DNA of 64,000 nucleotides from assembly GCA_963965975.1 (NCBI GenBank), contig OZ014411.1:26770249-26834248 (forward strand), written 5' to 3'. The notes under the pieces were generated by a model. It had not been told where the DNA came from and did not search any database. It saw nothing but the letters and a program-made list of their open reading frames with translations. The position numbers and the translations under genes are program-made. The DNA comes from Xestospongia bergquistia (lineage: Eukaryota > Porifera > Demospongiae > Haplosclerida > Petrosiidae). This document shows, piece by piece, positions 21,974 to 57,990 of the stretch (positions within the stretch are counted from its first letter, which is position 1; every line of letters begins with the position of its first letter).

Positions 21974-24900
21974 ATGGCTGTCCTCTTCAAAAACTTGTTT
22001 AGTAAGAAATATAGCTAAGATAATAGTGATTATCTTCAAATACATTATCAATTAAACATAGGTACCATGAACTTGGGAGCAATGTAAATGATTGTTTATT
22101 TTAAAGGAAGAATGCCGATATATAAGTGTTTACAATATTGTTTAATTGGATTAACTGCCATTTACACCAATAAAGTTTATAGACTTCATATAAATACCAA
22201 ATCCAAGGTCCTGGTTTTAAAATTGTTTGCTTTTTCATATCCCACTAGTCTTGCTGGCTTTGCCGACCCAGGTCTGACAAAGTGGGTAGCTATTTACATC
22301 ATACTAGTATATCACAGTATATATATGTGAATGAGAGCATTTGATTAATATAGATAGAAATTGAGGTTACTATGGTATCTAGTCAAGTCTATGCTCTATT
22401 TATAGCAATATCACTGTCAAACAATAGCCAATGTGTCATATTTAATACTTACTATATCTTTTGGGTCATCTTTCTGTCAACAGATTGTTTCATCTTGTTA
22501 GTTGAAGTCATTTGATAATATAATTACTTGTTATTATTGTTGTAGATGTGCGACCTTTTTTAGTAGCTGCCTCCATGGCTACTACATCATCTGTTCTACC
22601 TACATATGAGACACTCCACCTCTCTCGTCCTGTGGAATATGTAGTACAAGTTGAATTGAATAGACCAGAGAAAAGAAATGCCATGAATCTTCCTTTTTGG
22701 AGGTACATAATTAACTTTATAATTTAGTTTCCCATACTAGAGTCCTCCATGAAGTTACATTAATATTAAAATAATACTAAATAACAAATATTAAAATAAT
22801 ATTAGTGAAAGTAATATTAGTTTAATATTAGAAAATTATATAAACTAATAGTAATAACTATTACTGTAGTCTTTAAAATCACTACAATTAGTACATGTAA
22901 TTAAAGGTATGCTTATAACATATGACTTCACAGTGCTAACCAGCCTTTGATGATGTAGTCTTTATTTTTGACAGCATTATTATTAACACAATTGTTATTA
23001 ACATGTTATTACAGGGAGATGATAGAGTGTTTTCCTCAGTTACATAATGATCCTGATACTCGTTGTGTTATTATTAATGGTGCTGGACAAGCCTTCACTG
23101 CAGGTATGACTTGGCTATTATGGTTTGTAACAATTCCTTACTGTTTATATAAATGTAAAAATAGTTGAGTTCATTATAACATATTGATGCTATCAAACAT
23201 TGTGCATTATAGTACTAGAATAAGTAAAATGGATGAGTCAGGTAAGGAGTTAGGTATTTAAAGAAAACAACATAAGATAGTCAGAGTCCATCACATTTAT
23301 AGATAGTGTGGGAAGATGATGTAATACACTGACAATCATTAAAGTCTTAGCTGTAGCAGTAAGCTAGTGTTTTCGTCTAAGCCACTATGTAAGGTACTAG
23401 ATGATATAAGCTCATAGTAGCAATTAATGTTATGTATTGAATTTGTTTCTTTATTAATATACTAGAATACATTGTTATTATTAGGTCTTGATCTTACTGA
23501 TGTCGGACAAGTATTTGTAACAGGAGATGATGATGTTGGTAGAAAATCTATTAATTTTATGGAAACTGTTATAAAACCATTTCAGGATGCATTTACTGGT
23601 ATTGAAAAGGTACATATTGTAGTGTTGTCATATTTACTAATAAAAGTGTCTTAAATGTTCAAGTCTAGCAACATGTACATGCCATTCCTGTTAGAATTTG
23701 GTACAGCCAATCAAATCACAGCCTTCTTTCTAGAAATGGGATGGATAATATAAAAAATTATATATTATACATTATATTACTTACTTTATCAATAATAGTC
23801 ATGTTTAATCACTTTAGTGTCGTAAACCTGTGATTGCAGCTATACATGGATATTGTATTGGAGGAGGGGTTGATCTAATAACTGCCTGTGATATTAGACT
23901 ATGTACAAGTGATGCTTGGTTCCAAATCAAGGTTATTGGACACAATATTTTAACTATTTACAGATTGTTAAGTTCCATGTTTGACATATTTTTGTTGTCC
24001 ATATTAGGAAGTTGACTTAGGATTAGCTGCTGATGTCGGCACTTTACAGAGATTACCAAAAATAGTTGGAAATGACAGGTTAGTCTAAGTTTAGTATATG
24101 AGACAACATAACTAGTTAAGCTTTAAGCAGTAAAGTTTGTAATTCACTTTATAATAAGAATCCAATTTTATTATGTTTGTCAATTTCTTTAATGTTGTCG
24201 TTATTCACATTAATGTTATAATTGTATTGTGTTCATTGTTTAGTTTAGTACGAGAATTAGCATATACTGGTAGAAAATTTACTGCTGATGAAGCTCACTC
24301 TATGGGATTAGTGAGGTAGTATTAATAATACATTGCATATTATATTAGTGAGGTAGTATTAATAATACATTACATATTATATGATTCTTTATCAATATCT
24401 TCAATCATAGTATATCATATTTTGTAGTTCTTTATTTTATTATCATTCCTTCTTTCTTTATTAGTCATGTATTTCCTGATCAATCATCTATGATGTCTGC
24501 TGCTATTAAAATGGCTACCACTATAGCCAGCAAGAGTCCAATAGCTGTTCAAGGAACAAAAATTAATATCAACTATTCACGTGATCATACTGTAGATGAG
24601 TCACTAGAGCACATGGTTAGTTTCAATAAATTTTATAACCTTAAAATGTCTCTTGTTCATGTACATACTCACATTATAATGATAATAGTGGTGTTTAATT
24701 TATACACTAGCAATGTAAAGGTTTGAACTAAACAATTGATATAACACTGACAGCACAATTGATTTTACTAGTACTTTCATGTATCAATACTCCTGGGAAC
24801 ATTTCTCAGACTAACTTACTTAATAAACCTCTTATAAATTTGTTACTATAATTTCATCATCTACTAGGATGGTATTAATGGTAGTAGTCTATGTTGTTAA

Positions 24901-25045
24901 GATACATGTTAAATAATATTGTGAACACTATCTTATTTTTGTCATTTAGCGTATTTGGAATATGTCTATGTTACAAAGTGAAGATGTCATGAAATCTATT
25001 CAAGCCATGATCCAAAAAGAGCCCCCAGACTTCTATCCACTTTAA
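21974..25045 (+). CDS. ECH1: Delta(3,5)-delta(2,4)-dienoyl-CoA isomerase, copy A (mitochondrial-type)
   Basis: Nine exons: 21974-22001, 22546-22702, 23015-23103, 23485-23609, 23818-23931, 24008-24078, 24244-24315, 24465-24615, 24950-25045. Total 903 nt, 300 residues, with every junction in phase. A crotonase fold with the oxyanion segment [19 protein letters not shown] is clear. The three acidic residues of mammalian ECH1 (Asp176, Glu196, Asp204 in rat) are all present in GGGVD, KEVD and AADVG. ECH1 isomerises dienoyl-CoA in beta-oxidation of unsaturated fatty acids. The start [19 protein letters not shown] is basic and hydrophobic, without acidic residues, like a mitochondrial presequence. 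The C-terminus is PDFYPL, lacking the peroxisomal SKL of mammalian ECH1. An AATAAA lies at 25101. Exon 1 was deduced from splice phase and was not otherwise tested. Confidence 0.9.
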
Positions 25046-25591
25046 CGGATTTGCTAGCTGACTTTTAAAATGTTCATTGTTATATTACTGTTTTGTTGTT
25101 AATAAATATTCATAACAAAATGACCGTCTGTGCAGAATGAAAGGAGGGGCTGTCTGATAATTAACTCTATATCAGGTGTGTCTTTGAACCTTCAACTTTG
25201 TAAGTAATAATATTTAGTTAATATTTTTACTTGTATACGATGTTCTTAACACGAGATGTGTTGATATGGTCCTCAGGTTACTTTACATAATACTAGTACT
25301 TGAAATATCTATATCAAAATCTAAGATCTGCCAATATACAGCAACTTTAGTCGACATCCAATACAATTTCAATTGTAGGTGACAAATTAGACAGAATCCT
25401 ATAGTTGGTAGGCCATGTACAAAACAAAGGTTGAGTTATTATATTTAAATTAATTATCTAATTATTCGCTTATAATCTCAAAGTAATCAGTAATCTCATC
25501 TCTTAACTGTCTATTTTAAATTTATGATAATTACTATAATTATAGTCTTTTGTATTATCAGTTTATTAATTTGAGCACTATAGGGGTTACC
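25046..25591. other. Spacer between ECH1 copies
   Basis: Contains the 3' UTR and poly(A) signal of copy A and the promoter of copy B. A possible first coding exon for copy B (25240-25277, donor TCAG/GTTACT, phase 1) would splice to an acceptor ending TATAG at 25580. It would add about 15 residues before the ATG used here. The donor is weak and I do not rely on it. Confidence 0.35.
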
Positions 25592-28500
25592 ATGACTACT
25601 ACATCATCTGTTCTTCCTACATATGAGACGCTCCACCTCTCTCGTCTTGTGGAATATGTAGTGCAAGTTGAATTGAATAGACCAGAGAAAAGAAATGCAC
25701 TGAATGGACAATTTTGGAAGTACTGAGATATAGTGTAGCTTCTCATAGTAACAGTAATGATTATCATAGTTTTCTTAAGAACAATATTGGGTCATTATCA
25801 GATTAAGAACTTGATCATTCATTTGTATATTGATTTAGGCTTCTGTGATTATTATGAATTAGCAATATTTAAAAGATTGGTAATGTTTGGAATGGCCATC
25901 AAAGAATGATCAGTCACACTCTTTTTAAATTCATTGGTTACTAGTTGTTACGTAGAAGTTAATAATTCTAAGAAATTTCATCTAACAATACAATTGAATG
26001 ATGTGAAATAGACATACATGTTTACATAATTATCATGTGACCCAAACAGTTATAGGCGTGGCATATCAGTATATTAATAATCATATATTCATTATCTACT
26101 TGTCCACTTATTAACTATTAATAATTATTATAATGACAAAATGGATTTCCTATACATACAAAAGCTGTAACTACTGGCTAGTACAATATCTGATTTACTA
26201 CCCTTGCTATTGGACTATAACCTATAATGTTTACTGTATGATAGTCTGTATCAGTATATTATTGAACTAAATGTACATATCAATGCAATATTATTTAATT
26301 GATTTTTTTATTAATGTAGGGATGTGACAGATTGTTTCCTTAAGCTAAATGTTGATGCAGACACTCGTTGTATTATTATCAGTGGTGCTGGACAAGCCTT
26401 TACTTCAGGTCTAGTATTACATATTTAGAAAAAATTAAATATGTATGCCTTAATAAAAAATTAGTGCATAATTATTCAATAATAATATATAAGATAGACT
26501 GAGTTTTTTAACAGGTCTTGATATTAACAGCATCGCCGGAGGTGATACATTAGGAACACAAAGTGATGTTGGTAGAAGAGCTATTTTCCTGATGGAAAAT
26601 GCTATTAAACCTTTACAGGATGCATTTACTGGCATTGAAAAGGTACTTTATATCAACAAGATATATCTCAATCTATACACCAGTTACTTACATTACTCTG
26701 TGCATGTTCATATTACAATAATTATTTTAGCTCACATGATTGTCATGTGATCATCCTATTAATTTTTTTGGAAACAGTTATAAAACCATTTCAGGATGTA
26801 TTTACTGGTATTGAAAAGGTACATATTGTAGTATTGTCATATTTACTAATAAAAGTTTCTTAAATGTTCAAGTCTACCTACTTGTATACTGTTAGAATTT
26901 AGTGCAGCCAATCAAATCACAGCCTTCCTTCTAGAGGGTGGATGGATACTATTAAAAATTAGACATTATATGTTATATTACTTACTTTATCAATAATAGT
27001 CATGTTTACTCACTTTAGTGTCGTAAACCTGTGATAGCAGCTATACATGGATATTGTATTGGAGGAGGAATTGATCTTATAACTGCCTGTGATATTAGAC
27101 TATGTACAAGTGATGCTTGGTTTCAAGTTAAGGTATGACATAATGTATTATGTAATCATATTGTCCATTATAAATATAAAACTGATCGTCTGTATTTATA
27201 GGAAATTGAAATGGGATTAACTGCTGATGTTGGTACTATACAACGTTTTCCAAAAATTGTTGGAAATGAAGGGTAAGTAATGACTTTTAATTAATGTGGT
27301 ATTTGATTAAATAATAATATTCAGTTATACATTTTAATTGATATTCTGAACGTGTACATAATATTTCTAATCTTCATTATTTAGTTTAGTACGAGAATTA
27401 GCATATACTGGTAGAAAATTTACTGCTAATGAAGCTCACTCTATGGGATTAGTGAGGTAAATGGCATTAGTTATCTAGCATGTTACAGTATAATATGAAA
27501 GCTTAGCATATGCTGTTTAAATGTGATTTTCTATTTACCTATACAAACATAATTTTATTAATCTTCTAATATATTTAACTTCAATAATATTGAAGTTATT
27601 TGATGTTTATAATATTGGCATGTATATAATTGAAATAATGAAGTTATAATAGTTTAATTTAAAAATTATTTGAAATTTAGGGCTTTAGATTGATAATTTG
27701 TAATTGTTTCATACAGCAATAAAATAATAATGTGAAATAGTCACATCTTTATATCCAAGACAATTACAAGACTGCAGTAAGACTTTTATTTTAGATTTGT
27801 GTCATGTTAGTAGTCAATTTTATAGGTCCTTTTGTTCTTAACCTTTTAAGATAACTTACTAGACATACGTATATGCAGTGTAGAGCCTTGCGCAATGAAT
27901 TGCATACATTTTTGTATGCAGATATTATTTTATCTTTCTGTTAAAATAGCTGGGCCAGGGAAGATAGCACACATGATTCCATGCACAGCTGGAGAATAAT
28001 AGCAACAGTGCCATTTCAGGAGCACGTGAGCATACGTTTGCGGGTTGGGCTGAAATAATTGCATTCTCAAGCGTGACACATACATACATACATACATACA
28101 AACTATCTGCGAGATGCGACACACGATTATTTGCCTCGCGCTAAGGCGCTCGGCAACAAGTAGTCATATAGTAACATACTATCTAATATATGCACTGATA
28201 TTGTATAATGCATCTATAAGAAGGAAAACACTAGTAACTAAATGTACAATAACTTTTAACAATAAGGATATCAATGCTGCATTATTTCTCAAATGATTCT
28301 TTATTCTTATTTTATAATCATTCCTTCTTTTTTTTATTAGTCATGTATTTCCTGATCAATCATCTATGATGTCTGCTGCTATTAAAATGGCTACCACTAT
28401 AGCTAGCAAGAGTCCAATAGCTGTTCAAGGAACAAAAATTAATATCAACTATTCACGTGATCATACTGTAGATGAGTCACTGGAGCACATGGTTAGTTCA

Positions 28501-29028
28501 TACATTCTGTGTAGTACATTTGTGATAGTAGATGCCTCATACAATTTGTATATAGTACTATGCAATCAAATTATGTGTTTATAGTTAACTTGGGTGTGAT
28601 ATTCGTAGATTTATGATACTGTGTGCCTATGCTGAGAGCTGCTGCATCATTAATTACATTCCTGAATCAAATTATATACATATCTTTATTAAATTGTATC
28701 AAAATTAATTCTTGCTTCGCTCTAGCTCTGCTCAAACAATCAACAATTAATACTATACATCATCATCATCATAATAATAATAATAATAATAAAACTATAC
28801 ATCTAGTAAAATGATGACCTAATGAACCACAATTATGATATGTGTAAACCATGAAAGACAAAAATTAATATTAATAAATTTTGATTTTAATATTAATCAA
28901 ATTTTCCATTCAATGACTTTTCTATTTAATAGCGTATTTGGAATATGTCTATGCTACAAAGTGAAGATGTCATGACAGCTATTCAAGGTCTAATTAGTAA
29001 GGAGCCAGCTATCTTTTCTAAACTTTAA
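25592..29028 (+). CDS. ECH1: Delta(3,5)-delta(2,4)-dienoyl-CoA isomerase, copy B (peroxisomal-type, ends SKL)
   Basis: Eight exons: 25592-25719, 26320-26408, 26515-26642, 27019-27132, 27202-27272, 27385-27456, 28341-28491, 28933-29028. They give 282 residues in phase. Exon boundaries match copy A exactly except for the missing first exon. The catalytic acids are kept (GGGID, KEIE, TADVG). The protein ends AIFSKL, a canonical PTS1 tripeptide at the same place as in mammalian ECH1 (TFSKL). Starting at MTTTSSV it has no presequence, although a short upstream exon cannot be excluded. Intron 3 holds a duplicated tail of exon 4 of copy A, and intron 6 is enlarged to 884 nt. Exons near the 3' end are almost identical to copy A while the 5' exons differ more, as expected from partial gene conversion. 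Confidence 0.9.
26770..26818 (+). pseudogene. Relic of ECH1 copy-A exon 4 tail inside a copy-B intron
   Basis: These ~49 nt match the end of copy A exon 4 (GGAAACTGTTATAAAACCAT... ATTGAAAAG) and are followed by an almost identical version of copy A intron 4, including its GTACATATTG donor. Copy B already has its own exon 4 (26515-26642) just upstream, so this is a redundant piece. It keeps a good 5' splice site. The preceding TTTTTTTGGAAACAG could serve as an acceptor. The resulting 41-nt exon would break the reading frame. Confidence 0.8.
27930..28160 (-). repeat. Possible tRNA-derived SINE or other insertion in ECH1-B intron 6
   Basis: GC-richer than its surroundings and absent from the matching intron of copy A. 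Read on the minus strand it starts GTTGCCGAGCGCCTTAGCGC, loosely like a tRNA-Leu/Ser A box, with GTGTCGCATCTCGCA further on as a weak B-box candidate. A (CATA)n tract interrupts it at about 28078-28100. No target duplication was found. The SINE reading is tentative. Confidence 0.25.
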
Positions 29029-30258
29029 GAATTATTTTATATTTTATGTGTTTGGTTCTTTTTCCATTACAATTACGAACTTATCCTATCTTTTCACTGA
29101 CATTAATTTTATTAATATTATTATAATTATGTTTGAACTGTTGTAAATCATGTAGTCTATATTATTAACACTGCCATTATTTTGAAATATTTGATACTGA
29201 CTTTTCTACTTCGGAGTTAAATATAAGACATACTCACTCTAGGGGTGAGCTTATTATGTTAGCATAATTTAGGCATAATTGTTATTGACCATTATCCAGG
29301 CATAATTATAAAATGCTCAATAAATAGGTTAAATTCAAAGGCCACTCCCAATAAAAATTAATGTTAGTTGAAGAGCAGAATTAATTATATAATATACTGG
29401 AAAGTAGACTTGGGCCAAATGAATTCATAATTAGATTCAAGCCTATATCTTTGAATCAAAACTGTCTTTTTTTCTTTAATTTTAGAAACTCTCTTGACAT
29501 CATATGAAATAAAATGGTTTGAGGTTGATTAGATAAATGAGAAGATATTACAAAATGCTATAACACATTGGCCATAAAACTAAATTACAAAAAAATTGAA
29601 TGGAAAGAAATGCAAGACTTGATAATTAATATAAATAATTAAGACAAACATGGATGATTAAACACAAACCAGAACAAAGACAGAGAGATAAAGGGCCTTT
29701 CTTTCTTCTTATGATGGGCAATATAACATACAGATTGATTATGACAGTGTTATGACAACTATAGTATCGGCCTTAGTTGAGACTATTGTTAGAATGAAAG
29801 AGTTTTCAATTATACATGAATACGTACGTATTTTCGTAACTTTGTACAATGATAGATTATTCACACGTGTCTAAAGGCGTGGCAGACTGAAGGGGAATAC
29901 CAAGGGCGTGCCTCTACATTGCTGACAGGGCATAAGTAATTCAACCTGATTGATCAGAAAATTTTATTTGTCCCTGGAGTTCTTGTATTAGTGATTTCAG
30001 TGATTTCGGTGAAGTAAAGTGGTTGATCAGAAATCGTTTGTAAGTGGATGTCTAGAGGTAACTGAACACATACTTTAATGTGAAATTAATATATTTAGGT
30101 TAAAGTTTATTATCTAGAGTAGAGTATTAAATTCCCTTTAAAGTGCCGTTATCTATTACTGGCACACTTTAGTTATGTTACTATGACTAAGTTGTCTAAA
30201 TTAGCATGTTTAGTTTATATATGTAGCTGTTACATTTTTTTCTTTGTTAACAGTGATA
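29029..30258. other. Intergenic region and 5' UTR of the Death-domain/ankyrin gene
   Basis: No coding exon seen in the first ~850 nt. Two GGCGTG boxes occur at ~29877 and ~29905. A non-coding first exon probably ends at CTAGAG/GTAACT (~30056), and its intron ends at AACAG/TGATA at 30253, 5 nt before the ATG. Confidence 0.55.
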
Positions 30259-32787
30259 ATGTCAGATTATACAAGATTAACTGGACCAACTTTAAAATCA
30301 CTCATAAAGGAATTACAAATTGTCATAAAGTGGGAATTTCTTGGCCTTTTCATGGGAATTAGTGAGAGTGAACTTACAAAGATTCGTGTACAATTCTTTG
30401 CTACCGAAGGTGTTGAAAAATGTAAGCTGGAATTATATAAACTATGGCTTAACAAGGGTAAGAATGCCTCGTGGGAATCAATAGCTAAAGCTTTAGACAA
30501 AACTGGTTATGGAGCTTTAGCTGATTACATAAGAAGAAAGTATTCATCAGTATTACATGACCCTGCATTGACATTCAATGTACCAGCAGGTTCAAGAGTT
30601 CCTCCTCCTGTGGTTGAAAATGCAGAGAGTAACTCAAAGATTGCTCATATCACAGATGAAGTAGATTCTAGTAAACCAAACCAGGTAGGTAGCATGGCTA
30701 GGACAATACCTGATGTTGTAGTCAAACGACAACTTGTAAAACCTCTTGAAGAGCTGGAAGAAACATTTGCTGCTTTAGTTGTAGAAACTCAAAAAGCTTT
30801 TATGGATGATCCCAGTCGATTGGCATTGCTTATTTGTTATGTCGAAACACGCTTCTTAAAAAAAGGCCATTTATCTGGTCTATCAAGTAATCCCACTTGC
30901 AATGATGTCTTTCGTGTTCTTAATCAGCATTTGCATTGTCTTCAGGTCAAACCTTTATTAAAAATTGTTGAAATATTGCCAAAAGGTCCTCTTTTAGAAG
31001 ACGTTAAACAGTATGAAAGTGACCTTGCAAAATACAAAAGTTCCACAATGCTAAAGGCCCTCATTGATGTTATAAAATCAAAGAAACTGGGACAATCAGA
31101 TATGAAACCTATTGTCATGAAATTAGGAAGATTCTGGTTAGACGTGACAATAGCCAATTTTGAACTTTTAATACAGATGCAGTTTGAAGAAATGGATGAT
31201 TTTCTTAACATCAGTTCAGTTACTGATGGCTGTGTTTGTGTGACTTTAACTCCAACAAATGCAACATCAAATATCGCTTTAAAAGCTTCAAACAATTATT
31301 CCTTTTTGAAATCTGTTGGGATTGCTTTCATTATGGTGGATGACCAAGAAATATTTAAAACAGATTTAGAAAATGTCAAAAATATAACTGTAAGCAGAGC
31401 TTTTCAAGTTTCTTTTGAGTGTAAATCATTATTAGCAATTGAACTACTACTTGCTATATCAGCCAAACAAGAGCTTTTAAATGCCACAGAATGGTTAGAT
31501 GTAACACATAAGGCATCCAAAATCTCAGATAAACAAGGCATGACTGTCTTATACTTTGCAAGCAAGTATGGTCACAGCGAGGTAGTTTCGGCTTTATTAA
31601 ATGCAGGTGCAAATCCAAATATGTCCACAAATGATAAACGTAGCCCGCTTCTTGTTGCCAGCTTTTATGGTCATAAAAAAGTTGTCAGATTGCTTCTTGA
31701 AACCGGAGCAGATCCAAATATTTCGAATAAACATGGTGCTACACCACTGTATTTTGCAAGTGCAAATGGTCACAATGATGTAGTATTGATGCTGCTTCAA
31801 TCTGGAGCCAATCCAGGAATTGCTCGGACATCTGGGTGGACACCATTAATGGTAGCTTGTGAGAATGGCCATTTAGACATTGTTAATTCTCTACTGGGAA
31901 TAAATGAAATTTATTCAGCAGCAATTTCAGTTGATGTTAACTTTCAAAATGACAACGGTGTCACAGCATTATATCTTGCCAGTCAAAATGGTTATGTTGA
32001 TATCGTTAATGTGCTTACATTAGCTAATGCTGATCCAAATTTGGCAAATGCTAATGGAATGACACCACTAATGATTGCTTGCATTAAAAACCATCAAGAC
32101 ATTGTCCTTGCACTTCTTGGTTGTAATGCATCACCTAATGAAGTTCGTAAAGATGGCTGGACAGCTCTTACTCTAGCTAGTCGATTAGGCCATGCAAATA
32201 TCGTATCTTCACTGTTTCAATTTGATACTAAACCAAATATTACTCAGGCAAATGGGGGAACTGCGCTACATCTTGCATGTTATAATGGCCATTTCAAGGT
32301 AGTATCATTGTTACTTGAACATGGTGCTAACCCTAATTTGACCTTGGAAAGAGAAAATGGAGATCAATATACCCCTCTTATGATAGCAAGTACTAAAGGA
32401 GACACATCAGTAATTGAAGAATTACTAAAAGCAAACACTCACATTAACTTTGAAAGTAATGACGGACTCACTGCTCTAAATTTAGCTATTCGATTTGGGC
32501 ATGTCAATGTAGTGAAAGCTCTAATAAGTGCAAGAGCTGATCCAGGTAGGAAAAACAAGAAAGGTCAGTCACCAATAGCAATAGCACGACATTACAAGCA
32601 AACAGAAGTTGAAGAAATATTAAAAGATGCTATTCTGAAGTCACTTGGAGATACTGATCTTGATGAAAGTGTTCTTGATAGACATCCAAGTATTTCATCA
32701 TTGGGTTCTAGGTTATCTCTATCATCTCTTTCTGAATGCATGTCTTTTGTTAGTAAGGCCACTTCTGTATTTAAAATAGTCAATTAA
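30259..32787 (+). CDS. Death-domain protein with about eleven ankyrin repeats
   Basis: One coding exon, 842 residues; the ATG lies 5 nt after a probable 5'-UTR intron acceptor. Residues ~8-95 form a death-fold domain of Death-domain type (LTGPTLKSLIKEL, WEFLGLFMGISESEL, CKLELYKLWLNKG, WESIAKALDKTG, ALADYIRRKY). A ~300-residue middle region is alpha-helical and unrecognised. From ~420 to ~790 there are about eleven ankyrin repeats with typical TPL..A..NGH..VV..LL..GADPN cores; the fourth carries an insertion. The tail is Ser-rich. Death domains assemble signalling complexes and ankyrins provide protein binding, so an intracellular adaptor or sensor is plausible; its partner is unknown. AATAAA lies at 32873-32878. 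Lack of introns in such a long coding region contrasts with most neighbours. Confidence 0.85.
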   Translation: MSDYTRLTGPTLKSLIKELQIVIKWEFLGLFMGISESELTKIRVQFFATEGVEKCKLELYKLWLNKGKNASWESIAKALDKTGYGALADYIRRKYSSVLHDPALTFNVPAGSRVPPPVVENAESNSKIAHITDEVDSSKPNQVGSMARTIPDVVVKRQLVKPLEELEETFAALVVETQKAFMDDPSRLALLICYVETRFLKKGHLSGLSSNPTCNDVFRVLNQHLHCLQVKPLLKIVEILPKGPLLEDVKQYESDLAKYKSSTMLKALIDVIKSKKLGQSDMKPIVMKLGRFWLDVTIANFELLIQMQFEEMDDFLNISSVTDGCVCVTLTPTNATSNIALKASNNYSFLKSVGIAFIMVDDQEIFKTDLENVKNITVSRAFQVSFECKSLLAIELLLAISAKQELLNATEWLDVTHKASKISDKQGMTVLYFASKYGHSEVVSALLNAGANPNMSTNDKRSPLLVASFYGHKKVVRLLLETGADPNISNKHGATPLYFASANGHNDVVLMLLQSGANPGIARTSGWTPLMVACENGHLDIVNSLLGINEIYSAAISVDVNFQNDNGVTALYLASQNGYVDIVNVLTLANADPNLANANGMTPLMIACIKNHQDIVLALLGCNASPNEVRKDGWTALTLASRLGHANIVSSLFQFDTKPNITQANGGTALHLACYNGHFKVVSLLLEHGANPNLTLERENGDQYTPLMIASTKGDTSVIEELLKANTHINFESNDGLTALNLAIRFGHVNVVKALISARADPGRKNKKGQSPIAIARHYKQTEVEEILKDAILKSLGDTDLDESVLDRHPSISSLGSRLSLSSLSECMSFVSKATSVFKIVN

Positions 32788-46349: not shown

Positions 46350-47293
46350 TTAGTAAAGATAGACTTTGTTCCCAGAAAAATCTGTAATCCATATTGTTCC
46401 ATCTGGAGCAATAGCTACATCCCCAGCATTAGTAAAGCCCTTGATAATTTTAATTGGTTTGCCATTCTTGCCACAAAGATAGACTTCTCCTGGGCTGGAG
46501 CGATCAGCTACATAAATGTTATCATAACAGTCTACATATAAACCTTCACCAAGGTTAATACCATTGGTTTTTATACGACTGAGATGATGTCCAGACTTAG
46601 CAGTTATATACACACCTTTGTAATAAGTATTCACATGTAAGTTTTCATCAGAATCAAACTGGATTTTACGAGGGTATGTTCCTATACCAGTGATAACATG
46701 GGATTTGGTACCATTGGAGTTATACACATGTACTTTTCCAGTATTCACTTCTGAAACATACAGATTACCAACACTGTCTACTGCAACTCCAATTGGTTGG
46801 TTTTGTGCTGTTGCTGTTATTACTCTAATCAAGACTCCACTCACTGAATATTCATAAATTTTTTTAGCATTATAACCTGCAACGTACACTCGACTTCCTT
46901 TCACATACACTCCAGTTGGACCACCTTTAGGAATAGCAAATTTCTTTTGGAAGTTCCCATATATATCAAACTTATGGACATATATATATAACCATCTCCC
47001 CATCCTGAGATGAATACTTCACCATTATCAGTGATAGAAATGTAAAATGGTTGAATGATTATTCCAGTAATTGTTTTCCATGGACTTCCAATAGAAGATG
47101 GACTTCGAGTACGATTGCAATCACATCCAGATTGTATGGTTTGTATTTCTTTAACGAGTTCATCCATCATTTGTGTTACTTTGGACCGTATCCCTGGTAT
47201 TTTCTGACAACAATGTTGTTTGCATGTATCACTAGACACAATGTCACTGCCAAAAGCTAATACAATCATCAAAACTGTGATGTATCTAAACAT
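46350..47293 (-). pseudogene. Secreted NHL-repeat protein, copy 1 (frameshifted)
   Basis: The sequence starts with signal peptide MFRYITVLMIVLAFGSDIVSS and the DTCKQHCC / GCDCNRTR cysteine motifs, then NHL-type propeller blades up to the terminal DFSGNKVYLY. Compared with intact copy 3, an extra TATATATA (8 bp, around 46980-46989) interrupts the stretch encoding WGDGYVHKFD, so the frame changes there. A further 3-bp insertion near 47062 is in frame. Both halves are otherwise open and well conserved, so inactivation would be recent; a sequencing or assembly slip in an AT tract is the alternative. The TATA and CCAAT elements upstream are intact. Confidence 0.85.
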
Positions 47294-47396
47294 CTTTAGT
47301 CAATGTAGAATTATAGGAATTAAGAGATCAGCTACTACAAGTTACTTACTAATAGTTACTATAATAGTTGTGTTGAGTTATTGCAGAGAATCTCTT

Positions 47397-47446
47397 CATT
47401 TTATAACCTAAGTGCAATGTGCTATATATAGGATTTGACCAATCAG
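47397..47446 (-). promoter_or_regulatory. Core promoter, NHL copy 1
   Basis: On the minus strand: CTGATTGGTC-type CCAAT box (here CTGATTGGTC at 47437-47446), CTATATATAG at 47422-47431, and GGTTATAAAATGA at 47397-47409, about 105-150 bp before the ATG. The same layout recurs before other copies. Confidence 0.6.
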
Positions 47447-50400
47447 AATGTGCCATGAATCAACTCTCTTTCAACCCTTGAGAATATAATGACCAGGTCA
47501 CTACAGTTCACATAAAGTGAATAGATATTACATAAGGTATCCTGACACTCCAATAGTATCAACTCAATAGATAATGATGTCATTATAACAACAGCACATT
47601 GGAAAAGGTACATAGATGTTGATGTAGGCATTAGATAATATTTATGATGTAAAAACACAGCAATAGGTCATTATTACTCTTTAGCATGAAAAGTATATGT
47701 ACATTTATATAGAACTTAATAAGCTTCATGGAATAGGAACAATATATGTAGTATATTATAATATACTCTAAGCACTCTTTCAAAGTTTAGACCTTATTAT
47801 ATTCTGTTTGACTACCAATCAATTTGTCTATACATTTTCTATCCTATAGCTATCTATCCTTTGTAAGTCTTTTAAAACTGATTCATGTTGTATGTTCACA
47901 GATGATGTTGAGAATATTACTTTGAAGATTCCTTTGTGTCACACACTAAATACTGCATTGATCAATGATGTACTTGACAAACAATGGAGGCAACTACTGT
48001 ATTATATATATTATATATATATATTAATTATAATAAAAATATATTTTATATATTTTAATAATGATATATTTTTCAGATGAGATAGCTATACATAATTACA
48101 ATCAATTCATTATCACTCAGTTATCACCTGTGATTAGACATGGGATTAGACATTCTGTGACGTTTCCAAGCTAAGATTGCAAGCAATCAGATTTTGCCAT
48201 GAATGAACTCTCTTTCCTTTCTTCAACCCTTGGAAAATGACCATGTCACTACAGTTCACATAAAGTGAATAGGTATTAGATAAAGTTATCAAAGCTGACA
48301 CTCCAATAGTATCAACTCAATAGATAATGATGTCGTTATAACAACACTACATTGGGAAAGGTACATAGATGTTGATGTAAGCATAGATAATATCTATGAT
48401 GTAAGAATATAACAATAGGTCATTATTGCTCTTTAGCATGAAAAGTACATGTATATTTATATAGAACTTCATGGAGTAGGAACAATATATGTAGTACATT
48501 ATAATATACTCTAAGCACTCTTTCAAAGTTTAGACCTAGCCTTATTATATTCTGTTTGACTACCCATCAATTTTGTCTATACATTTTTCTATCCTATATC
48601 TATCTATCTCTATCCTATGTAAGTGTCTTAAAACTGTTTATGTCGTTCACAGATGATGTTGAGAATATTGCTTTGACAATGAATGTATTTAAATTGAAAA
48701 AGTTTAAAATGACACTGATTACAAATAGGGGAGTCATTAAAGCATGCTTATTTTGGTTAATGTTACACCAATTAAGTCTCTATCAGTCATATGCTTATAA
48801 ATTTGTTAGCTAATTAAGACCTGAAATAATATGGATATATAAGTAATTTGTATTTCATTGTTTAACAATGTAATGTGTTCCAGACACTCTAAGAAAAGTA
48901 ATAACTATCTTTCTCTTTCATCTGTTTAATTTCTATCTAATTGTGTAGAATCATCACTTGAATCTTTAACATATGCATAATATCATGCATATACCAAATA
49001 TATTCTCTCATACCATATGCTGCGGCATTTAAGTAGCACATTCTTTCATCCTTTTATATTATTAAAAATCATTAAATAATACCACAAACAGTTTAATACG
49101 CCTACCAAAAAAATTATTAAATAAACTCAAAACTACTGCTACGAAAATAGATATTGAAAATCATTGTGCATGTAGCAATCACCTGAAAATGACTATCACT
49201 GCTGGAGCGTAGGAGCACCACTGGAGTTTCCCAGTATATATGAAGCTTCATGATTATGATACATCAGCACTTTACTGTCATGGTGATACTACTTTTAGAT
49301 TCTTTTGTGTTACACACTAAATACTGCATTGATCAATGATATACTTGACAAACAAGCACAACTAACCTCATGTTTCATTTATATAACTATATTTAATGTC
49401 ACAGTAATCAGTCTAGAAAGTATGATTAGATACACAATAAGATACTACAGTTCACTGAACATGTGATCTGGACATCACTGCAGCCTTAATATAATATCCA
49501 CATGAAAGGTACATAGTCCAAGCACTGTTATCGTTACACACATGGATATTTTTCTTGCACTATTGCACATTCACTGGTTTCTATTAATCCCAATTAGTAA
49601 GCCCTCCAGAAAGGTCAGAGGTCACACTACCAGCATGATTATGTCCCTGATTCAAAGAGTTTGGTTCACATACTGTGTATGGTAATGTGTACATAATAGG
49701 ATGAAATGGGATTCTTCATTGATCTTATATCACAGAGGATATGCATAGTCATTTAAGGGTATTTGGGGACTTGGAAGTATCATATTTCCAAAGCAAATAT
49801 TATGCAGCTGAGACAACCCCATAGTAGTCATCTAATCTATTGCCTCTTGGCAGATGGCATGCAATGAATTATTTACCTGACTACATTCTTTATTTATCAT
49901 TAATTGACCCTAAAATTCAGAAAAGGAATCTATAAAAAGAAATAATAAACTAGCATTAGTCCACTAGCATGCATGCAACATGCAAAGATTATATATAATT
50001 TGTAAGTAACAAAAGCTATGAATGACAATAATCCACATTATCAGGACTAACAAATTATCTTATAACTGCTATGAATGGTCTGTGTACCAAATGTGTTTAC
50101 CTGAATTAGCTATATGTCAGTAGATTGTTCAACAACTTTTGAAGTCTCCACAATATTATATATAAGTGACTTTAACAAGTGGATATATATATATGGAAGA
50201 TCCTACTGATGAAGATTGTTTGAAGATGAGCAAATGGATTTCTTTGACAGCTATTGCATGCATGTAATCATAAATGTAGCATGCAATTGTCAAATTGGTC
50301 TTGATCCTTGTCAAATTGAAGTAATGATCTTCAATAAATTTCCTTTACTTGAAACTTTTAATGTATATTATAATGCATACATTAAAGTGAAGCTAACATA

Positions 50401-50815
50401 CATATAAAAACTGAGCTGTAGATGTAAAACATTTGAGTGTAACATAATTAAAAGCAAATGGTCTTGTATCTATTCAGTAACCTCACTACATATATATTGG
50501 TTGAAACAAATCCTAAAAAAAGAATGTAAGGAAAATGAAGAAATAACAAAATGACACTAATTCTAGCTGAATTAAGACAGTAACAATGCCAGATATTAAA
50601 TTATAACCATTACAAAGACTTTTTATTATCTTTGTCCATGTTTTTATCTATCCACAACATAGATTAAATCTGTGAGTATTATGTGCCTAAAATTATTGTT
50701 CAAAATCATGGTATAATTGATGCAATTATGCATTGTAAATAGAAAACTACAAAAGTGGGGGTGATTTGACAAGGTTTTCTTGTTAATTTTAAGTATGTAT
50801 ATATCATACGCTAAT
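47447..50815. other. Spacer between NHL copies 1 and 2
   Basis: No gene supported. Almost all of it is shared with the spacer between copies 3 and 4: 48610-49190 matches 55660-56240 and 49440-50470 matches 57050-57990. AT microsatellites occur near 48005. Confidence 0.55.
48610..49190. repeat. Recent duplication, copy 1 (partner 55660-56240)
   Basis: About 580 bp nearly identical to 55660-56240, from AAGTGTCTTAAAACTGTTTA to GTAGCAATCACCTGAAAATG, with only scattered substitutions and a short deletion. This is the most similar stretch between the two NHL units. Confidence 0.85.
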
Positions 50816-51739
50816 TTAATAAAGGTAGACTTTACTGCCAACAAGTTCTGTAATCCATATTGTTCCATCTGGAGCAATAGATGCATCCGCAGCAACAGTA
50901 AAGTCCTTGATAATTTTCTTTGGTTTCCCATTTTTACCACAAAGATAGACTTCACTTGGACTGGAGCGATCAACTACATACATGTTATCATAACAGTCTA
51001 TAAACAGACCATCACCAATGTCTATACCATTGATTTTTAACTGGCTGAGATGATGTCCAGACTTAGTAATAATATAGACACCTTTGTAATGAGTATTCAC
51101 ATATAAATTGTCATCCAAGTCAAACTGGATTTTACGAGGGTTTGTTCCTATACCAGTGATGACATGAGATTTGGTACCATTTGAATTATACACATGCACT
51201 TTTCCAGTATTCTCTTCTGAGACATAGAATTTGTCATCACTGTCCACAACAAGTCCAATTGGATGGTATGGTGCTGTTTTTTCATCAATAAAGACTCCAT
51301 CCATTGAATACCTATAAATTTTGTTAGCATAATAACCTGCAACATACACTTGATTGCCTTTCACATACACTCCAGTTGGACCACCTTTAGGAATAGCAAA
51401 TTTCTTTTGGAAGTTGCCATATTTATCAAACTTGTGTACATAACCATCTCCCCATCCTGAGATGAATACTTCACCATTATCAGTGATAGAAATGTAAAAT
51501 GGACGATCAATTCCATTAATCGTTTTCAATGGCCTTCCAATAGTGGATGGACTTCGAGTACGATTGCAATCACATCCAGATTGCATGGTCTGTATTTCTG
51601 TAATAAGCTCATCCATTATTTGATTTACTTTGGATCGTATCCCTGGTAATTGTTGACAACAATGTTTGCAAGTATCACTAAACATGATTTTACTGCCACA
51701 AACTAATGCAATCATAAAAATTGTGATGTATATTGACAT
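50816..51739 (-). CDS. Secreted NHL-repeat protein, copy 2 (intact)
   Basis: A single exon of 307 residues. Signal peptide about residues 1-21 (MSIYITIFMIALVCGSKIMFS), then DTCKHCCQQLPG, a short helix (IRSKVNQIMDELITEIQTMQ) and GCDCNRTR. The rest is about six NHL/YVTN-like beta-propeller blades (e.g. FISGWGDGYVHKFDKYGNFQKKFAIPKG is one, quoted only in part: GDGYVHKFDKYGNFQKKF; also VAVDS-type turns and GKVHVYNSNGTKSHVITGIG-type strands). The family forms propellers that bind protein, RNA or glycans; here secretion points to an extracellular ligand. N-glycosylation sites NRT and NGT are present. It belongs to subtype B with copy 4. CCAAT, TATA and TATAAAA boxes lie upstream (51828-51877). Confidence 0.88.
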   Translation of the reverse strand: MSIYITIFMIALVCGSKIMFSDTCKHCCQQLPGIRSKVNQIMDELITEIQTMQSGCDCNRTRSPSTIGRPLKTINGIDRPFYISITDNGEVFISGWGDGYVHKFDKYGNFQKKFAIPKGGPTGVYVKGNQVYVAGYYANKIYRYSMDGVFIDEKTAPYHPIGLVVDSDDKFYVSEENTGKVHVYNSNGTKSHVITGIGTNPRKIQFDLDDNLYVNTHYKGVYIITKSGHHLSQLKINGIDIGDGLFIDCYDNMYVVDRSSPSEVYLCGKNGKPKKIIKDFTVAADASIAPDGTIWITELVGSKVYLY

Positions 51740-51827
51740 CTTTACTTAATGTAGACTATTAAACGAAGATATCAGCTACTAAAGGTTACTTACTATACTT
51801 GTATTGATTTGTTGAAGAGAATATCTT

Positions 51828-51877
51828 ACTTTTATAACCTAAATGCAATGTGCTATATATAGGATTTGACCAATCAG
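51828..51877 (-). promoter_or_regulatory. Core promoter, NHL copy 2
   Basis: Minus strand order: CTGATTGGTC (51868-51877), CTATATATAG (51853-51862), GTTATAAAAGT (51828-51838). About 90-140 bp before the ATG at 51739, with the same spacing as in copies 1 and 3. Confidence 0.65.
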
Positions 51878-54031
51878 ATTGTGCCATGAATCAACTGTCT
51901 TCTTTTGTTCACCTCTTAGGGAGTGACCAAGTTACTATATGTTCATATATAGAATGAATAGATATTAGATAAAGTTATCAAAGCAGACACCCCAACACCA
52001 CCATCTCAATAGATATGATGCCATTATAACAACAGTACATTAGAAATGTACGTAGATGTTCATGTAAGTATAGATAATATCTATGTGATAAGAAGTTAGC
52101 AATAGGTCATTATCGTTGCTAGCATAAAATGTACATATATGTGTTATAGGACTACATGACCTAGTATATTTTAATGTACTCTAAGCACTCTTTCAAAGCT
52201 AAGTTCAGATATTATTATATTCTGTTTAGCTACCCATCAATTCTATCCATGCATTTTTCTATCCTGTATCTGTCTATCTCTATCCTATGTAAGTCTCTTG
52301 AAAACCCTTATGCTGTTCACAGATGATGTTCAGAATATTGCATTGACAATACATTTATTTAAAATGACATTTATTGCAAAATGGGGAGGAGGTGATTAAG
52401 GTGAGCTTGTTTTCCTTAAACATTAAACCAATTTAGTCTCTATCAGTCATATGCTTGTAAATCTGTTAGCCAATTAAAGACCAGAAGTATATACATATAT
52501 ATAAAAAATACTTTATATTTATTTGTTTACAAATGTAATCTATCCCAGACAATCCAAGAAAGTATTTACTAGATTTCTCTGTCATCTTTGCAATCTCCCT
52601 CTAATTGTGTAGAATCATCAGTTGATTCTTTGTTATATTTATCATAATGCATTAGTCTAGGGTTGTTACCCCTTCGCTTTTGAGAAGAAGGATCTAAATA
52701 TTAGCATATTACCAAACTTGCATCAACAGTTAATTAGCACATTCTTTCATCCTTAAATGTAATTAAATAAGCATTGATCACTAATTACATTCCAGCAGAA
52801 AAGGTTTGCCAAGTCCGTTGTCAAAATTGATAATATCAAGTGGGCAAGTTCAAAATGACAGTTCCCTACCACGTTGCGTGTAGAGTTCCGAAGCATTAGA
52901 ACACCTTCTTCAGATCTCAAAACGTACTGTAGGGCGATATTTACTTTATTCCTGAATAGAAGTTGAACGTTAGACATCGTAAAAATGATTCATCCAATGG
53001 CAAGCTTTTTGGATACGTTTAGTATTTAATATTATTTTAGAAAATTCCAGAATATATTTGCTTGAGATGCAGTTGAAGCTTTCCCAGAAATTCCGAGTAG
53101 AAGTGAGTGTTTCCACTATATGTAGAACACTCAAGGACATGGGATGTATAGCCACCAACAAATGCACCTTGTGTCTATGCAACAATCAGATGATCTGAGA
53201 GGAAAATTTACGACTCACTAAGAAAGGAAGAGTATGCTATGGAAGCCAAGGGTGGACTTCCATTTGTACTTTCCGATTTCAATTGTGGACTTTGCAGATT
53301 TTAAAAATTCCAAATAAAGATCCAGCTGATAGGTTCCATTTACTTATTACTTATTTCATTCTTGACATGTGTGCCATTTCCAATTTTTATTAAGCTTTTC
53401 TTGTTACTTAATAAGATGCAGAGTATGAGGTTGTGTTCCTGATTTTGGTTGTATGTTGTAAGACATTTCAACTAAGATTATCATTTACAGAAGCTGAGGA
53501 TGGACATTCCATCTCCAAATAACCCCATTTCAGTTTCGAATTTGGAAATCACTAATTTGGAAATGGAAATCTGAAAGAAAAAATGGAAGTCCGCTCTTGG
53601 CTTCCATACTATCCTCTACATTGCTGCCATACATGTTGTATATATACACTTGTCTTCAGACACTTCCTCTCTTAGCTAGCCTAAGGGTAACTATGCCAGA
53701 CTATAGTGATCACTCTACATACGTGATTTAAAAATCCTTAAAAAGGAACTAATGTGGGTAAATGTATGGCATGTGAATACATAAAATAAGACAATAATGA
53801 TATCATTGTCTAGTTATGTGGTCATCTTCAGCTGGAGCTAATTAGTGCCTTTGTTGTTATAAAGATCCCAGCTATTAAAATGTCTTATCCATATCTTTAC
53901 CATAATCATGTGACAAAAACATAATGTTCAATATCAATGTTACATCTAATGTATTATCACTACAAAACTATAAAAATGGGGGTGACTTCACAAGGAACTC
54001 TTAGAAAATATTACAAAAAAACAACAATATT
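51878..54031. other. Spacer between NHL copies 2 and 3
   Basis: Contains a TA-flanked MITE (53240-53606) and another divergent copy of the GTTCACAGATGATGTT block near 52315. No host gene is supported. Confidence 0.5.
53240..53606. mobile_element. MITE with TGGAAGCC termini
   Basis: 367 bp flanked by TA (53238-53239 and 53607-53608). Terminal inverted repeats of about 40 bp: left TGGAAGCCAAGGGTGGACTT, right inverted TGGAAGCCAAGAGCGGACTT, continuing CCATTT...CTTTC-GATTTC. No coding capacity. TA target suggests Tc1/mariner-type mobilisation. Related ends occur at 61.8-62.4 kb. Confidence 0.82.
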
Positions 54032-54958
54032 TTAATAAAGATAGACTTTGTGGCTAACAAAGTCGGTAATCCACAATGTTCCGTCTGGAGCAATAGCTAC
54101 ATCTGAAGCTCCAGAAAAACCCGTGATGATGTTCACTGGTTTGCCATTTTTACCACAAAGATAGATTTCCCCTGGATTGGAGCGATCAGCTACATACATG
54201 TTATCATAACAATCTACATACAAACCTTCACCATAGTCTATACCAATGATTTTTAACTGACTGAGATGATGGCCAGATTTAGTAGTAATATAAACTCCTT
54301 TGTGATGAGTGTTCACATGTAAGTTTTCATCTGAATCAAACTGGATTTTACGAGGGTATGTTCCTATACCAGTGATATCATGGGATTTGCTACCATTGGA
54401 GTTATACACATGTACTTTTCCAGTATTCACTTCTGAAACATACAGATTACCAACACTGTCTACTGCAACTCCAACTGGTTGGTTTTGTGGTGTTATTACT
54501 CTAATCAAGACTCCACTCACTGAATACTCATAAATTTTGTTAGCTTTGTAACCTGCAACATACACTTGATTACCACTTGCATATATTCCGGTTGGATTAC
54601 CCCCAGGAATAGCAAATTTCTTTTGGAAGTTCCCATATATATCAAACTTATGGACATAACCATCTCCCCATCCTGAGATGAATACTTCACCATTATCAGT
54701 GATAGAAATGTAAAGTGGTTGAATAATTCCAGTAATTGTTTTCCATGGACTTCCAATAGTAGATGGACATCGAGTACGATTGCAATCACATCCAGATTGC
54801 ATGGTCTGTATTTCTTTAACGAGTTCATCCATCATCTGAGTTACTTTGGACCGTATCCCTGGCAATTGCTGACAACAATGTTGTTTGCAAGTATCACTAG
54901 ACACCATTCCACTGCCAAAAGCTAATACTATCATCAACACTGTGATGTATCTAAACAT
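54032..54958 (-). CDS. Secreted NHL-repeat protein, copy 3 (intact)
   Basis: A single exon of 308 residues. Signal peptide about residues 1-21 (ending GMVSS), cysteine motif DTCKQHCCQQLPG, helix, GCDCNRTR, then about six NHL-type blades ending DFVSHKVYLY. It is closest to copy 1 (subtype A): both share SVSGVLIRVIT, SVGNLYVSEVNTGKV and PGE(V/I)YLCGKNGKP, which differ in subtype B. Differences among copies are mostly substitutions in surface-turn positions, for example GGNPTGIYASGNQ here against GGPTGVYVKGNQ in copy 2. A role as a secreted binding protein is likely from architecture; the ligand is unknown. Confidence 0.88.
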   Translation of the reverse strand: MFRYITVLMIVLAFGSGMVSSDTCKQHCCQQLPGIRSKVTQMMDELVKEIQTMQSGCDCNRTRCPSTIGSPWKTITGIIQPLYISITDNGEVFISGWGDGYVHKFDIYGNFQKKFAIPGGNPTGIYASGNQVYVAGYKANKIYEYSVSGVLIRVITPQNQPVGVAVDSVGNLYVSEVNTGKVHVYNSNGSKSHDITGIGTYPRKIQFDSDENLHVNTHHKGVYITTKSGHHLSQLKIIGIDYGEGLYVDCYDNMYVADRSNPGEIYLCGKNGKPVNIITGFSGASDVAIAPDGTLWITDFVSHKVYLY

Positions 54959-55047
54959 CTTTAGTCAATGTAAAATATAAGAATTAAGAGATTAGCTACT
55001 ACAGGTTACTTTATAGTTGTATTGAGTTATTGCGGAGAACTCTTCAT

Positions 55048-55094
55048 TTTATAATCTAAGTGCAATGTGCTATATATAGGATTTAACCAATCAG
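55048..55094 (-). promoter_or_regulatory. Core promoter, NHL copy 3
   Basis: Minus strand: CTGATTGGTT CCAAT box (~55085-55094), CTATATATAG-like (55069-55079), TTATAAAATGA (~55044-55053). Same layout as copies 1 and 2. Confidence 0.6.
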
Positions 55095-55165
55095 ATTGTG
55101 CCATGAATCAACTCTCTTTCCTTTCTTCAACCCTTGGAAATGACCAGGTCACTACAGTTCACATA

Positions 55166-55400
55166 AAGTGAATAGATATTAGATAAAGTTATCTAAACTG
55201 ACACTTCAATAGTATCAACTCAATAAATAACGATGTCATTATCTATTGAGTTGATACTATTGGAGTATATGTACGTAAGTTTATGCTAGCTTACATCAAC
55301 ATCTATGCACCTTTCCCAATGTAGTGTTGTTATAATGACATCCTTATCTATTGAGTTGATACTATTGGATTGATAACTTTATCTAATATCTATTCACTCT
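55166..55400. repeat. Inverted-repeat cluster upstream of NHL copy 3
   Basis: The segment AATAGATATTAGATAAAGTT ... CAATAGTATCAACTCAATA (55171-55229) is repeated in inverted orientation at ~55346-55398 (TATTGAGTTGATACTATTGG ... AACTTTATCTAATATCTATT). A third partial copy (CTATTGAGTTGATACTATTG) lies at ~55242. The corresponding spacer upstream of copy 1 has only the single forward copy. Confidence 0.8.
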
Positions 55401-55404
55401 ATAG

Positions 55405-55449
<45 letters not shown>

Positions 55450-55659
55450 TAAGAATATAATAATAGGTCATTATTGCTCTTTAGCATGAAAAATACATGT
55501 ATATTTATATAGAGCTTCATGGAGTAGGAACAATATATGTAGTATATTATGATATACTCTAAGCAAAGTTCAGACCTTATTATAATTATTCTGTTTGACT
55601 ATCCATCAATTTTGTCTCTATAGATTTTTCTATCCTATATCTATCTATCTCTATCCTAT

Positions 55660-56240
55660 GTAAGTGTCTTAAAACTGTTTATGTCGTTCACAGATGATGT
55701 AGGGAATATTGGTTTGAAAATGAATGTATTTAAATTGAAAAAGTTTAAAATGACACTGATTACAAATAGGGGAGTCATTAAAGCATGCTTATTTTGGTTA
55801 ATGTTACACCAATTAAGTCTCTATCAGTCATATGCTTATAAATTTGTTAGCTAATTAAGACCTGAAATAATATGGATATATAAGTAATTTGTATTTCATT
55901 GTTTAACAATGTAATGTGTTCCAGACACTCTAAGAAAAGTTCTTTCATTTTTTTTAATTTCTATCTAATTGTGTAGAATCATCATTTGAATCTTTGTTAT
56001 ATTTAACATATGCATAATATCATGCATATACCAAATATATTCTATCATACCATATGCTGCAGCATTTAAGTAGCACATTCTTTCATCCTTTTATATTATT
56101 AAAAATCATTAAATAATACCACAAACAGTTTAATACGCCTACCAAAAAAATTATTAAATAAACTCAAAACTACTGCTACGAAAATAGATATTGAAAATCC
56201 ATGTGCATGTAGCAATCACCTGAAAATGATTATCACTGCT
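55660..56240. repeat. Recent duplication, copy 2 (partner 48610-49190)
   Basis: Nearly identical to 48610-49190; part of the duplicated two-gene NHL unit. Confidence 0.85.
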
Positions 56241-56689
56241 GGAAACAACGAAGGCAAGAGGATTAGAGGATAGAGTTTATTGGTGAAAGTCTACGTACCA
56301 CACCCACCTATTGTATCAGGAAATGATGTAATGAGCACTAATTACATTCCAGCAGAAAGGACTTAAACAGCGTGCTACCGGAAATTTTAAATCCGTTCTC
56401 AATTTCAAACTACTCATGCGCAATATAATATCGTCTGGTAACTACTGTTTGAGTAATTTCCATAGATTTCTTGGATAATAATATACTCTAGGAATCATCC
56501 ATCAACTATGACGTAAAAATTCCTTTTACCGCAATGTTCAACTATCTACGATGACTATTTTTAGTGCAGATATTGACTTATCTGCTGCTCTACTCTATGA
56601 TCTAAATTAAAGCAGCTAATAAGACTAAATCTATCTCTTAAAAAAATTTTCTTTTTGTCCATTGAAGCTGTATATGATGGAAAAGATGT

Positions 56690-56960
56690 CTTGTTTTCCA
56701 GCACCAGTACTGCCATTCATACCCATAAAGATATAGGAAAGTTATCAAAGTTAAAGGAGCTTGGTACTGACTAGTCTTCTCCTTACTGAGTGTTGTAGAA
56801 TAAGGAGGATCATTTGTATACAGTTTATTGTCATTCATTATGTTGACTAATCATAGAGTAGTCATAACATCAGCACTTTACTGTCATAGTGGTACTACTT
56901 ACAGATTCTTTTGTGTCACACACTGAACACTGCACTGATCAATGATGCACTTGACAAGCA
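56690..56960. repeat. Low-copy repeat shared with 44690-44960
   Basis: Direct-orientation partner of 44690-44960; see that entry for the shared blocks. Function unknown. Confidence 0.6.
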
Positions 56961-57049
56961 CAACTAACCTCAGGTTCCATTTTTATAACCATATTTAATG
57001 TCACAGCAATCAGTCTGATTAGATACAATAAGATACTACAGTTCACTGA

Positions 57050-57990
57050 GCATGTGATCTGGACATCACTGGAGCCTTAATATAATATCCACATGAATGG
57101 TCTAAGCATTATTATCAATACACACATTTCTTGCACTTCACTGGTTTATATTAATCCCAATTAGTAAGTCTTCCAGAAAGGTCACAGGTCATACTACCAG
57201 TGTGACTATATGTCCAAGTTAATTGATTCAAAGAGTTTGGTTCACATATTGTATGTGGTATTGTGTACATATATTAGGATGAAATGGGAGCATACATCCT
57301 CCATTGATTGATCTTGTATCATAGAGGATATGCATAGTCTGTCATTTAAAGGTATTTTGGGACTTGGAAGTATGAAACAACCTCTTGGCAGATGGCCATG
57401 AATTACTTGACTGAATTCTTTATTTATCATTAATTTATCCCAAGATTTAGAGGAGGAATCGATCTATAAAAAGACATAATAAACTAACATTAGTCCACTA
57501 GATAGTATGCAACATGCAAAAGATTATATATAATTTGTAAGCAACAAAAGCTATGAATATAACAATCCATATTATCAGGACTTAACAACTTTTCTTATAA
57601 CTGCTATGAATGGTCTGTTATAATTGTCAAGTGTGTTTACCTGAATTAGCTATGTCAGTAGATTGTTCAAAAAGTTTTGAAGTCTCTGCAATATTATGAA
57701 TGACTTTAACAAGTGGATATATGGAAGATCCTGCTGGTGAAGATGTGTTTAAAGATATTGTGCAAACAGATTTCTTTGACAACCATTGCATGCATGCATG
57801 CAATCATAAAATGTAGCATCCAATTGTCAATTTGACCTCCATTCATGTCAAACTGAAGTAATGATCTTAAAAAAGGTTCCTTTATTTGAAATGTTTAAAG
57901 TATATATCATGCATAATATACATTAAAGTGAAGCTAACATAATTAAAACTGAGCTGTAGATGTGAAAAATTTGAGTGTAATATAAAATTA
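57050..57990. repeat. Duplication partner of 49440-50470
   Basis: Shared blocks in order: GATACTACAGTTCACTGA, TGTGATCTGGACATCACTG, CCTTAATATAATATCCACAT, AAAGAGTTTGGTTCACATA, CCTCTTGGCAGATGGC, TTACCTGAATTAGCTAT, ACTGAGCTGTAGATGT. It places the two NHL spacers as homologous. Confidence 0.8.

Follow-up and report, generated by a model that had tools for sequence, protein, structure and literature searches.

Tandem ECH1 genes in the sponge Xestospongia bergquistia, a candidate case of divided mitochondrial and peroxisomal targeting

Introduction

Mammalian ECH1 carries both a mitochondrial and a peroxisomal signal in one protein. In zebrafish, according to a passage of one study, Ech1 carries SKL (PMC8919083). 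After a gene duplication, the ancestral locations can be divided, each copy keeping a part of them, which is described as sublocalisation in a passage of PMC2397506; a passage of PMC9549241 describes yeast isoform genes that carry the signal for one compartment only. Cases have been described in yeast and in other organisms (PMC2397506, PMC9549241).

The two sponge genes described here resemble ECH1 of mammals and zebrafish in their family, in their conserved acids and in their best structure matches (1dci, 2vre and 8sk6, with rat and human ECH1 at the top for both copies). Unlike mammalian ECH1, in which one protein holds both signals, they are two tandem genes with SKL on one of them. They are also similar to the sublocalised duplicates, as far as the cited passages describe them (PMC2397506, PMC9549241), in that an ancestral set of locations may have been divided between the copies, but differ from these in that their locations are predicted from sequence alone and in that they also have conversion tracts. 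Since the partition of signals after duplication is an already known process, the pair is a plausible candidate for a new case and would make a clear, modest addition to it. No title or abstract among the literature matches listed deals with split ECH1 genes in a sponge; a sponge ech1 transcript is mentioned in a passage of PMC9012834. If the reading proposed below is true, an animal would have divided a dual-targeted enzyme of beta-oxidation between two genes with one address each, with conversion preserving similarity in parts of the core, and the pair could be used to test directly if conversion spares the targeting ends.

Results and Discussion

Two complete ECH1 genes in tandem

The window, by which we mean the whole analysed stretch of 64,000 nucleotides, contains the two genes with the following structures.

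21974..25045, plus strand: ECH1 copy A, nine coding exons, 300 residues, C-terminus FYPL, closed frame from joined exons
21974-22001, 22546-22702, 23015-23103, 23485-23609, 23818-23931, 24008-24078, 24244-24315, 24465-24615 and 24950-25045, plus strand: coding exons of copy A
25592..29028, plus strand: ECH1 copy B, eight coding exons, 282 residues, C-terminus FSKL (PTS1), closed frame from joined exons
25592-25719, 26320-26408, 26515-26642, 27019-27132, 27202-27272, 27385-27456, 28341-28491 and 28933-29028, plus strand: coding exons of copy B

The copies lie in tandem on the same strand, with GT-AG introns and no internal stop codons. Their intron phases, 1-2-1-0-0-2-2-0 in copy A and 2-1-0-0-2-2-0 in copy B, are identical from exon 2 onward (exons of both copies are numbered below as in copy A). 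Upstream of copy A lies a divergent gene, whose ATG at 21815 is about 160 bases from A exon 1.

Among PDB sequences, the best match of both copies is rat ECH1 (1dci), with E values of 1.4e-104 for copy A and 1.1e-97 for copy B. Both match Pfam ECH_1 (2.7e-51 for A and 1.1e-46 for B) and exceed the cut-off of 308 bits for NCBIfam NF004794, with 332.6 and 316.4 bits, respectively. The alignments were read against D176, E196 and D204 of rat ECH1, which we take to be its catalytic acids; counted on these alignments, the corresponding residues are D152/E172/D180 in A and D134/E154/D162 in B. Both copies probably encode a dienoyl-CoA isomerase, the activity predicted by these matches, and we infer that both are expressed. 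A first-pass annotation of this DNA had described tandem ECH1 genes that both retain the three catalytic acids, and the joined frames and alignments agree with it in both respects. When the genome was searched with copy B, exon by exon and with only the best candidates scored, 16 of the 18 matches listed fell in the A-B locus, the remaining two being distant crotonase relatives on C10 and C6 with identities of 30% and 36%.

The end of A exon 7 and its donor are present in a 37-base tandem copy (24307-24380, 97% identical), which duplicates the donor site; use of the second donor would shift the frame. An interspersed repeat (27858-28159, about 300 bases) lies in the intron of copy B before exon 8, and a search of this intron against the genome gave 64 listed matches including itself, many of them at 89-96%.

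C-terminal ends and the proposed division of targeting

29017..29028, plus strand: codons of copy B for SKL (PTS1) and stop, opposite the YPL and stop codons of copy A (25034-25045)

Copy A ends in EPPDFYPL and copy B in EPAIFSKL, the two termini being in register in the alignment and in agreement with those annotated before. The first 45 bases of the last exon are nearly the same in the two copies (43/45 identical), and the final 51 bases are identical at 32/51. On the joined frames, the predicted PTS1 is firmly assigned to copy B only and has no counterpart in copy A. The end of copy B matches the vertebrate end, because zebrafish Ech1 likewise has SKL in the passage cited (PMC8919083).

An alternative SKL exon in copy A, raised in the first-pass annotation as evidence that would count against divided targeting, was looked for at the AG sites within 24650-25591, where no good one was found; the sole PTS1-like end, QQL, lies at an acceptor scoring 0.1. 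Read-through of the stop codon of A adds RIC, and retention of its last intron gives a frame (24385-24726) that ends in SNVKV, neither of which is a PTS1. In the same genome, a Pex14_N match above its cut-off is present (E 1.3e-4). HMGCL, considered as a one-protein control for dual targeting, was set aside, its last exon not having been found in the frames listed.

The best explanation, which we put forward tentatively, is that the copies are duplicates with split targeting, mitochondrial for A and peroxisomal for B. The ECH1 gene would have been duplicated in tandem in the lineage of this animal. Copy B would have retained the C-terminal SKL and would enter peroxisomes via PEX5, and copy A, having lost SKL or being without it, would enter mitochondria, most likely by means of an N-terminal extension from its first two exons. 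Recurrent gene conversion would hold exons 5, 7 and 8 alike, while both ends and exons 3, 4 and 6 diverge. That the ancestor had both signals is suggested by analogy with vertebrate ECH1.

The start of copy B

25544..25591, plus strand: two candidate splice acceptors upstream of the copy B ATG, whose AG ends at 25561 in one (phase 0) and at 25583 in the other (phase 1)

The homology between the copies starts at 22573 in A and 25590 in B, two bases before the ATG of B, and because it begins there, nothing in copy B clearly corresponds to A exon 1 or to the opening 27 bases of A exon 2. A copy B without a presequence is the simplest reading of this start. It is not a secure one, because the candidate extension MYKTKFINLSTIGVT is acid-free and as basic as the start of A.

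A different reading, which we consider somewhat unlikely, gives copy B an upstream coding exon, either its own or A exon 1 acquired by read-through splicing; B would then be dual-targeted like mammalian ECH1, and only A would have lost a signal. Both upstream acceptors score well, and the one at 25583 is in phase 1 as in A intron 1; an equally good phase-1 acceptor is found at 46 of the 2987 ATGs in the window (53 of 2987 with the first matrix) and an equally good one in any phase at 125 of 2987. When A exon 1 is joined to the acceptor at 25583 it reads in frame into B, but to do so it must splice across 3.6 kb, past A's own exons. Nor does B appear to have a homologue of this exon, the candidate matches upstream of B being only 8 to 31 bases long (best E 0.004). 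The region upstream of B matches only itself in the genome at the sensitivity of the search.

The top-scoring extension, MYKTKFINLSTIGVT, joins 25415-25429 to 25562; it contains two lysines and no acids, and the protein extended by it has no acid up to residue 26. By the yardstick of acid and basic residues, it would be as much like a presequence as the start of A; the next-best extension, MFLTRDVLIWSSGVT, has one acid and one arginine. Comparable extensions are not rare, however, since 31 of 600 random ATGs have one of equal splice score (41 of 500 with the first matrix). The good acceptors at 25561 and 25583, together with MYKTKFINLSTIGVT, bear out the caveat of the first-pass annotation that copy B may have a short upstream exon.

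The start of copy A

21974..22001, plus strand: putative first exon of copy A (MAVLFKNLF), a possible presequence, 28 bases, weakly supported
22575..22577, plus strand: Met20 codon of copy A, a possible alternative start, homologous to the ATG of copy B

Under split targeting, the presequence would lie at the start of copy A. The first 30 residues of A include two basic ones and no acid, and their hydrophobic moment peaks at 0.29; B has three acids in its first 30. An in-frame ATG at 21941, upstream of the A start, would add 11 residues. For comparison of composition, 340 open stretches of 35 codons beginning with ATG were taken from the window. In 53 of them the first 30 residues include two or more basic residues and no acid, and 46 also have a moment no lower than that of A. 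By this measure, the composition of the A start is indistinguishable from chance. Two other crotonase-family genes of the genome have readable N-ends for comparison: L001, on the reverse strand, which we take to be an ECI-like gene, has four arginines within its first 25 residues, and L018 has two within its first 18.

It is improbable, in our estimation, that the exon 1 model of A is wrong and that translation starts at Met20 (22575), in which case neither copy would have a presequence, and A would be cytosolic, or peroxisomal in mixed hexamers with B. Besides the common composition of the A N-end, this reading can draw on the homology between A and B, which begins at this ATG, and on the junction between A exons 1 and 2, which ranks 34-35 of 45 candidates. 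The small splice matrix, derived from the other 14 introns, gives the junction this low rank and therefore lends no support to a presequence exon of A, but with only 14 introns behind it the matrix is also a limited argument for a start at Met20. Against such a start, moreover, exon 1 has a usual donor core, GTAAG, its distance of about 160 bases from the divergent ATG makes a promoter likely there, and an ECH1 free of any signal would be odd.

For split targeting, the consequence is mixed. The first-pass annotation had given copy A a basic, acid-free N-terminus; the absence of acids and the two basic residues in 30 are as it described, but such composition is common and the exon 1 junction ranks low, so that its role as a presequence is no more than putative. 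It had further interpreted the pair as subfunctionalised dual localisation. The duplication and the PTS1 on B only stand; that A is confined to mitochondria and that B lacks a presequence is not secured by the sequence, MYKTKFINLSTIGVT matching the A start in its lack of acids and its number of basic residues.

A mosaic of similarity and probable gene conversion

26767..27132, plus strand: A-like tract in copy B, with a remnant of half of exon 4 (49/52 identical), intron 4 (180/200) and exon 5 (107/114)
27373..27459, plus strand: exon 7 and edges, probable conversion tract, 98% identical to A 24232-24318
28329..28498, plus strand: exon 8 and edges, probable conversion tract, 98% identical to A 24453-24622

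The similarity between the copies varies sharply along the gene. Synonymous divergence reaches 0.41-0.68 in exons 3, 4, 6 and 9 but is only 0-0.07 in exons 7 and 8, with exons 2 and 5 in between at about 0.2. About 2 of 49 synonymous sites differ in exons 7 and 8 versus about 28 of 81 in exons 3, 4, 6 and 9 (Fisher p 2.9e-5, calculated on rounded counts with the exons grouped after the values were seen). The longest run of unchanged synonymous codons is 42 of 211 (p 0.037, 20000 shuffles). Intron 4 is 90% identical; the other compared introns after exon 2 share short matching stretches only, of which the longest (34-36 bases) lies in the intron preceding exon 8.

The A-like tract sits 3′ of B's own exon 4 (26515-26642), so that the remnant of half of exon 4 lies within the intron. 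Most plausibly, A was the donor and B the recipient of this tract, and its left edge was shifted. Judged from these alignments, the pair is a gene conversion mosaic, a feature missing from the first-pass annotation.

Ancestry and unequal divergence

In trees that also included rat, human and five relatives from bacteria (5 of the 14 plasmid hits; L021, the one relative from the bacterial and archaeal genome scan, was excluded), A and B group together with a support of 98 (263 columns). The support is only 75 when the tree is built on exons 3, 4, 6 and 9 (118 columns), and 98 on the 112 columns of exons 5, 7 and 8. On this grouping, one duplication after the split from vertebrates would have given A and B. 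The synonymous divergence of 0.41-0.68 in exons 3, 4, 6 and 9 is not saturated.

In the 118 columns, the branch of B is 0.53 long and that of A 0.05. Replacements found in B only exceed those in A only by 19:5 with rat and 22:4 with human as outgroup. With the bacterial outgroups, the ratios are 14:3 (Rhodococcus), 13:9 (Tistrella), 5:14 (Cupriavidus), 8:11 (Paraburkholderia) and 9:10 (Yoonia). An excess in B is therefore evident with the vertebrate outgroups and with one of the bacteria; with the remaining four it is slight, absent or reversed.

The long branch and the vertebrate ratios, together with the interspersed repeat in the intron before exon 8, would fit a copy B that is relaxed or redundant, partly overwritten by A and without a separate function. 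We regard this as highly improbable, given that B retains 282 codons without a stop or frameshift, its GT-AG sites, the catalytic acids and SKL, and that the replacement bias is inconsistent among the bacterial outgroups (from 5:14 with Cupriavidus to 14:3 with Rhodococcus). Hardly to be expected at all is a single transcription unit with a shared presequence exon, in which A exon 1 would be spliced either to A exon 2 (a mitochondrial form without SKL) or, with the phase unchanged, to an acceptor before the ATG of B (presequence plus SKL), a promoter of B would give an SKL-only form, and the core would be largely interchangeable by conversion, so that mixed hexamers could bring A into peroxisomes.

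Among the bacterial relatives, the ECH1-like enoyl-CoA hydratase gene of Yoonia (L026, 265-1365) adjoins an annotated NADPH-dependent 2,4-dienoyl-CoA reductase gene, a pairing of genes of the same pathway.

Other features of the window

AATAAA occurs 11 times, against a mean of 8.71 in shuffles, which is at chance level. A single-frame protein of 844 residues with many ankyrin repeats (Pfam) is encoded at 30253-32787. On the minus strand, 46350-63666 holds five similar open frames of 184-311 residues, apparently a tandem family, which presumably encode NHL-repeat proteins.
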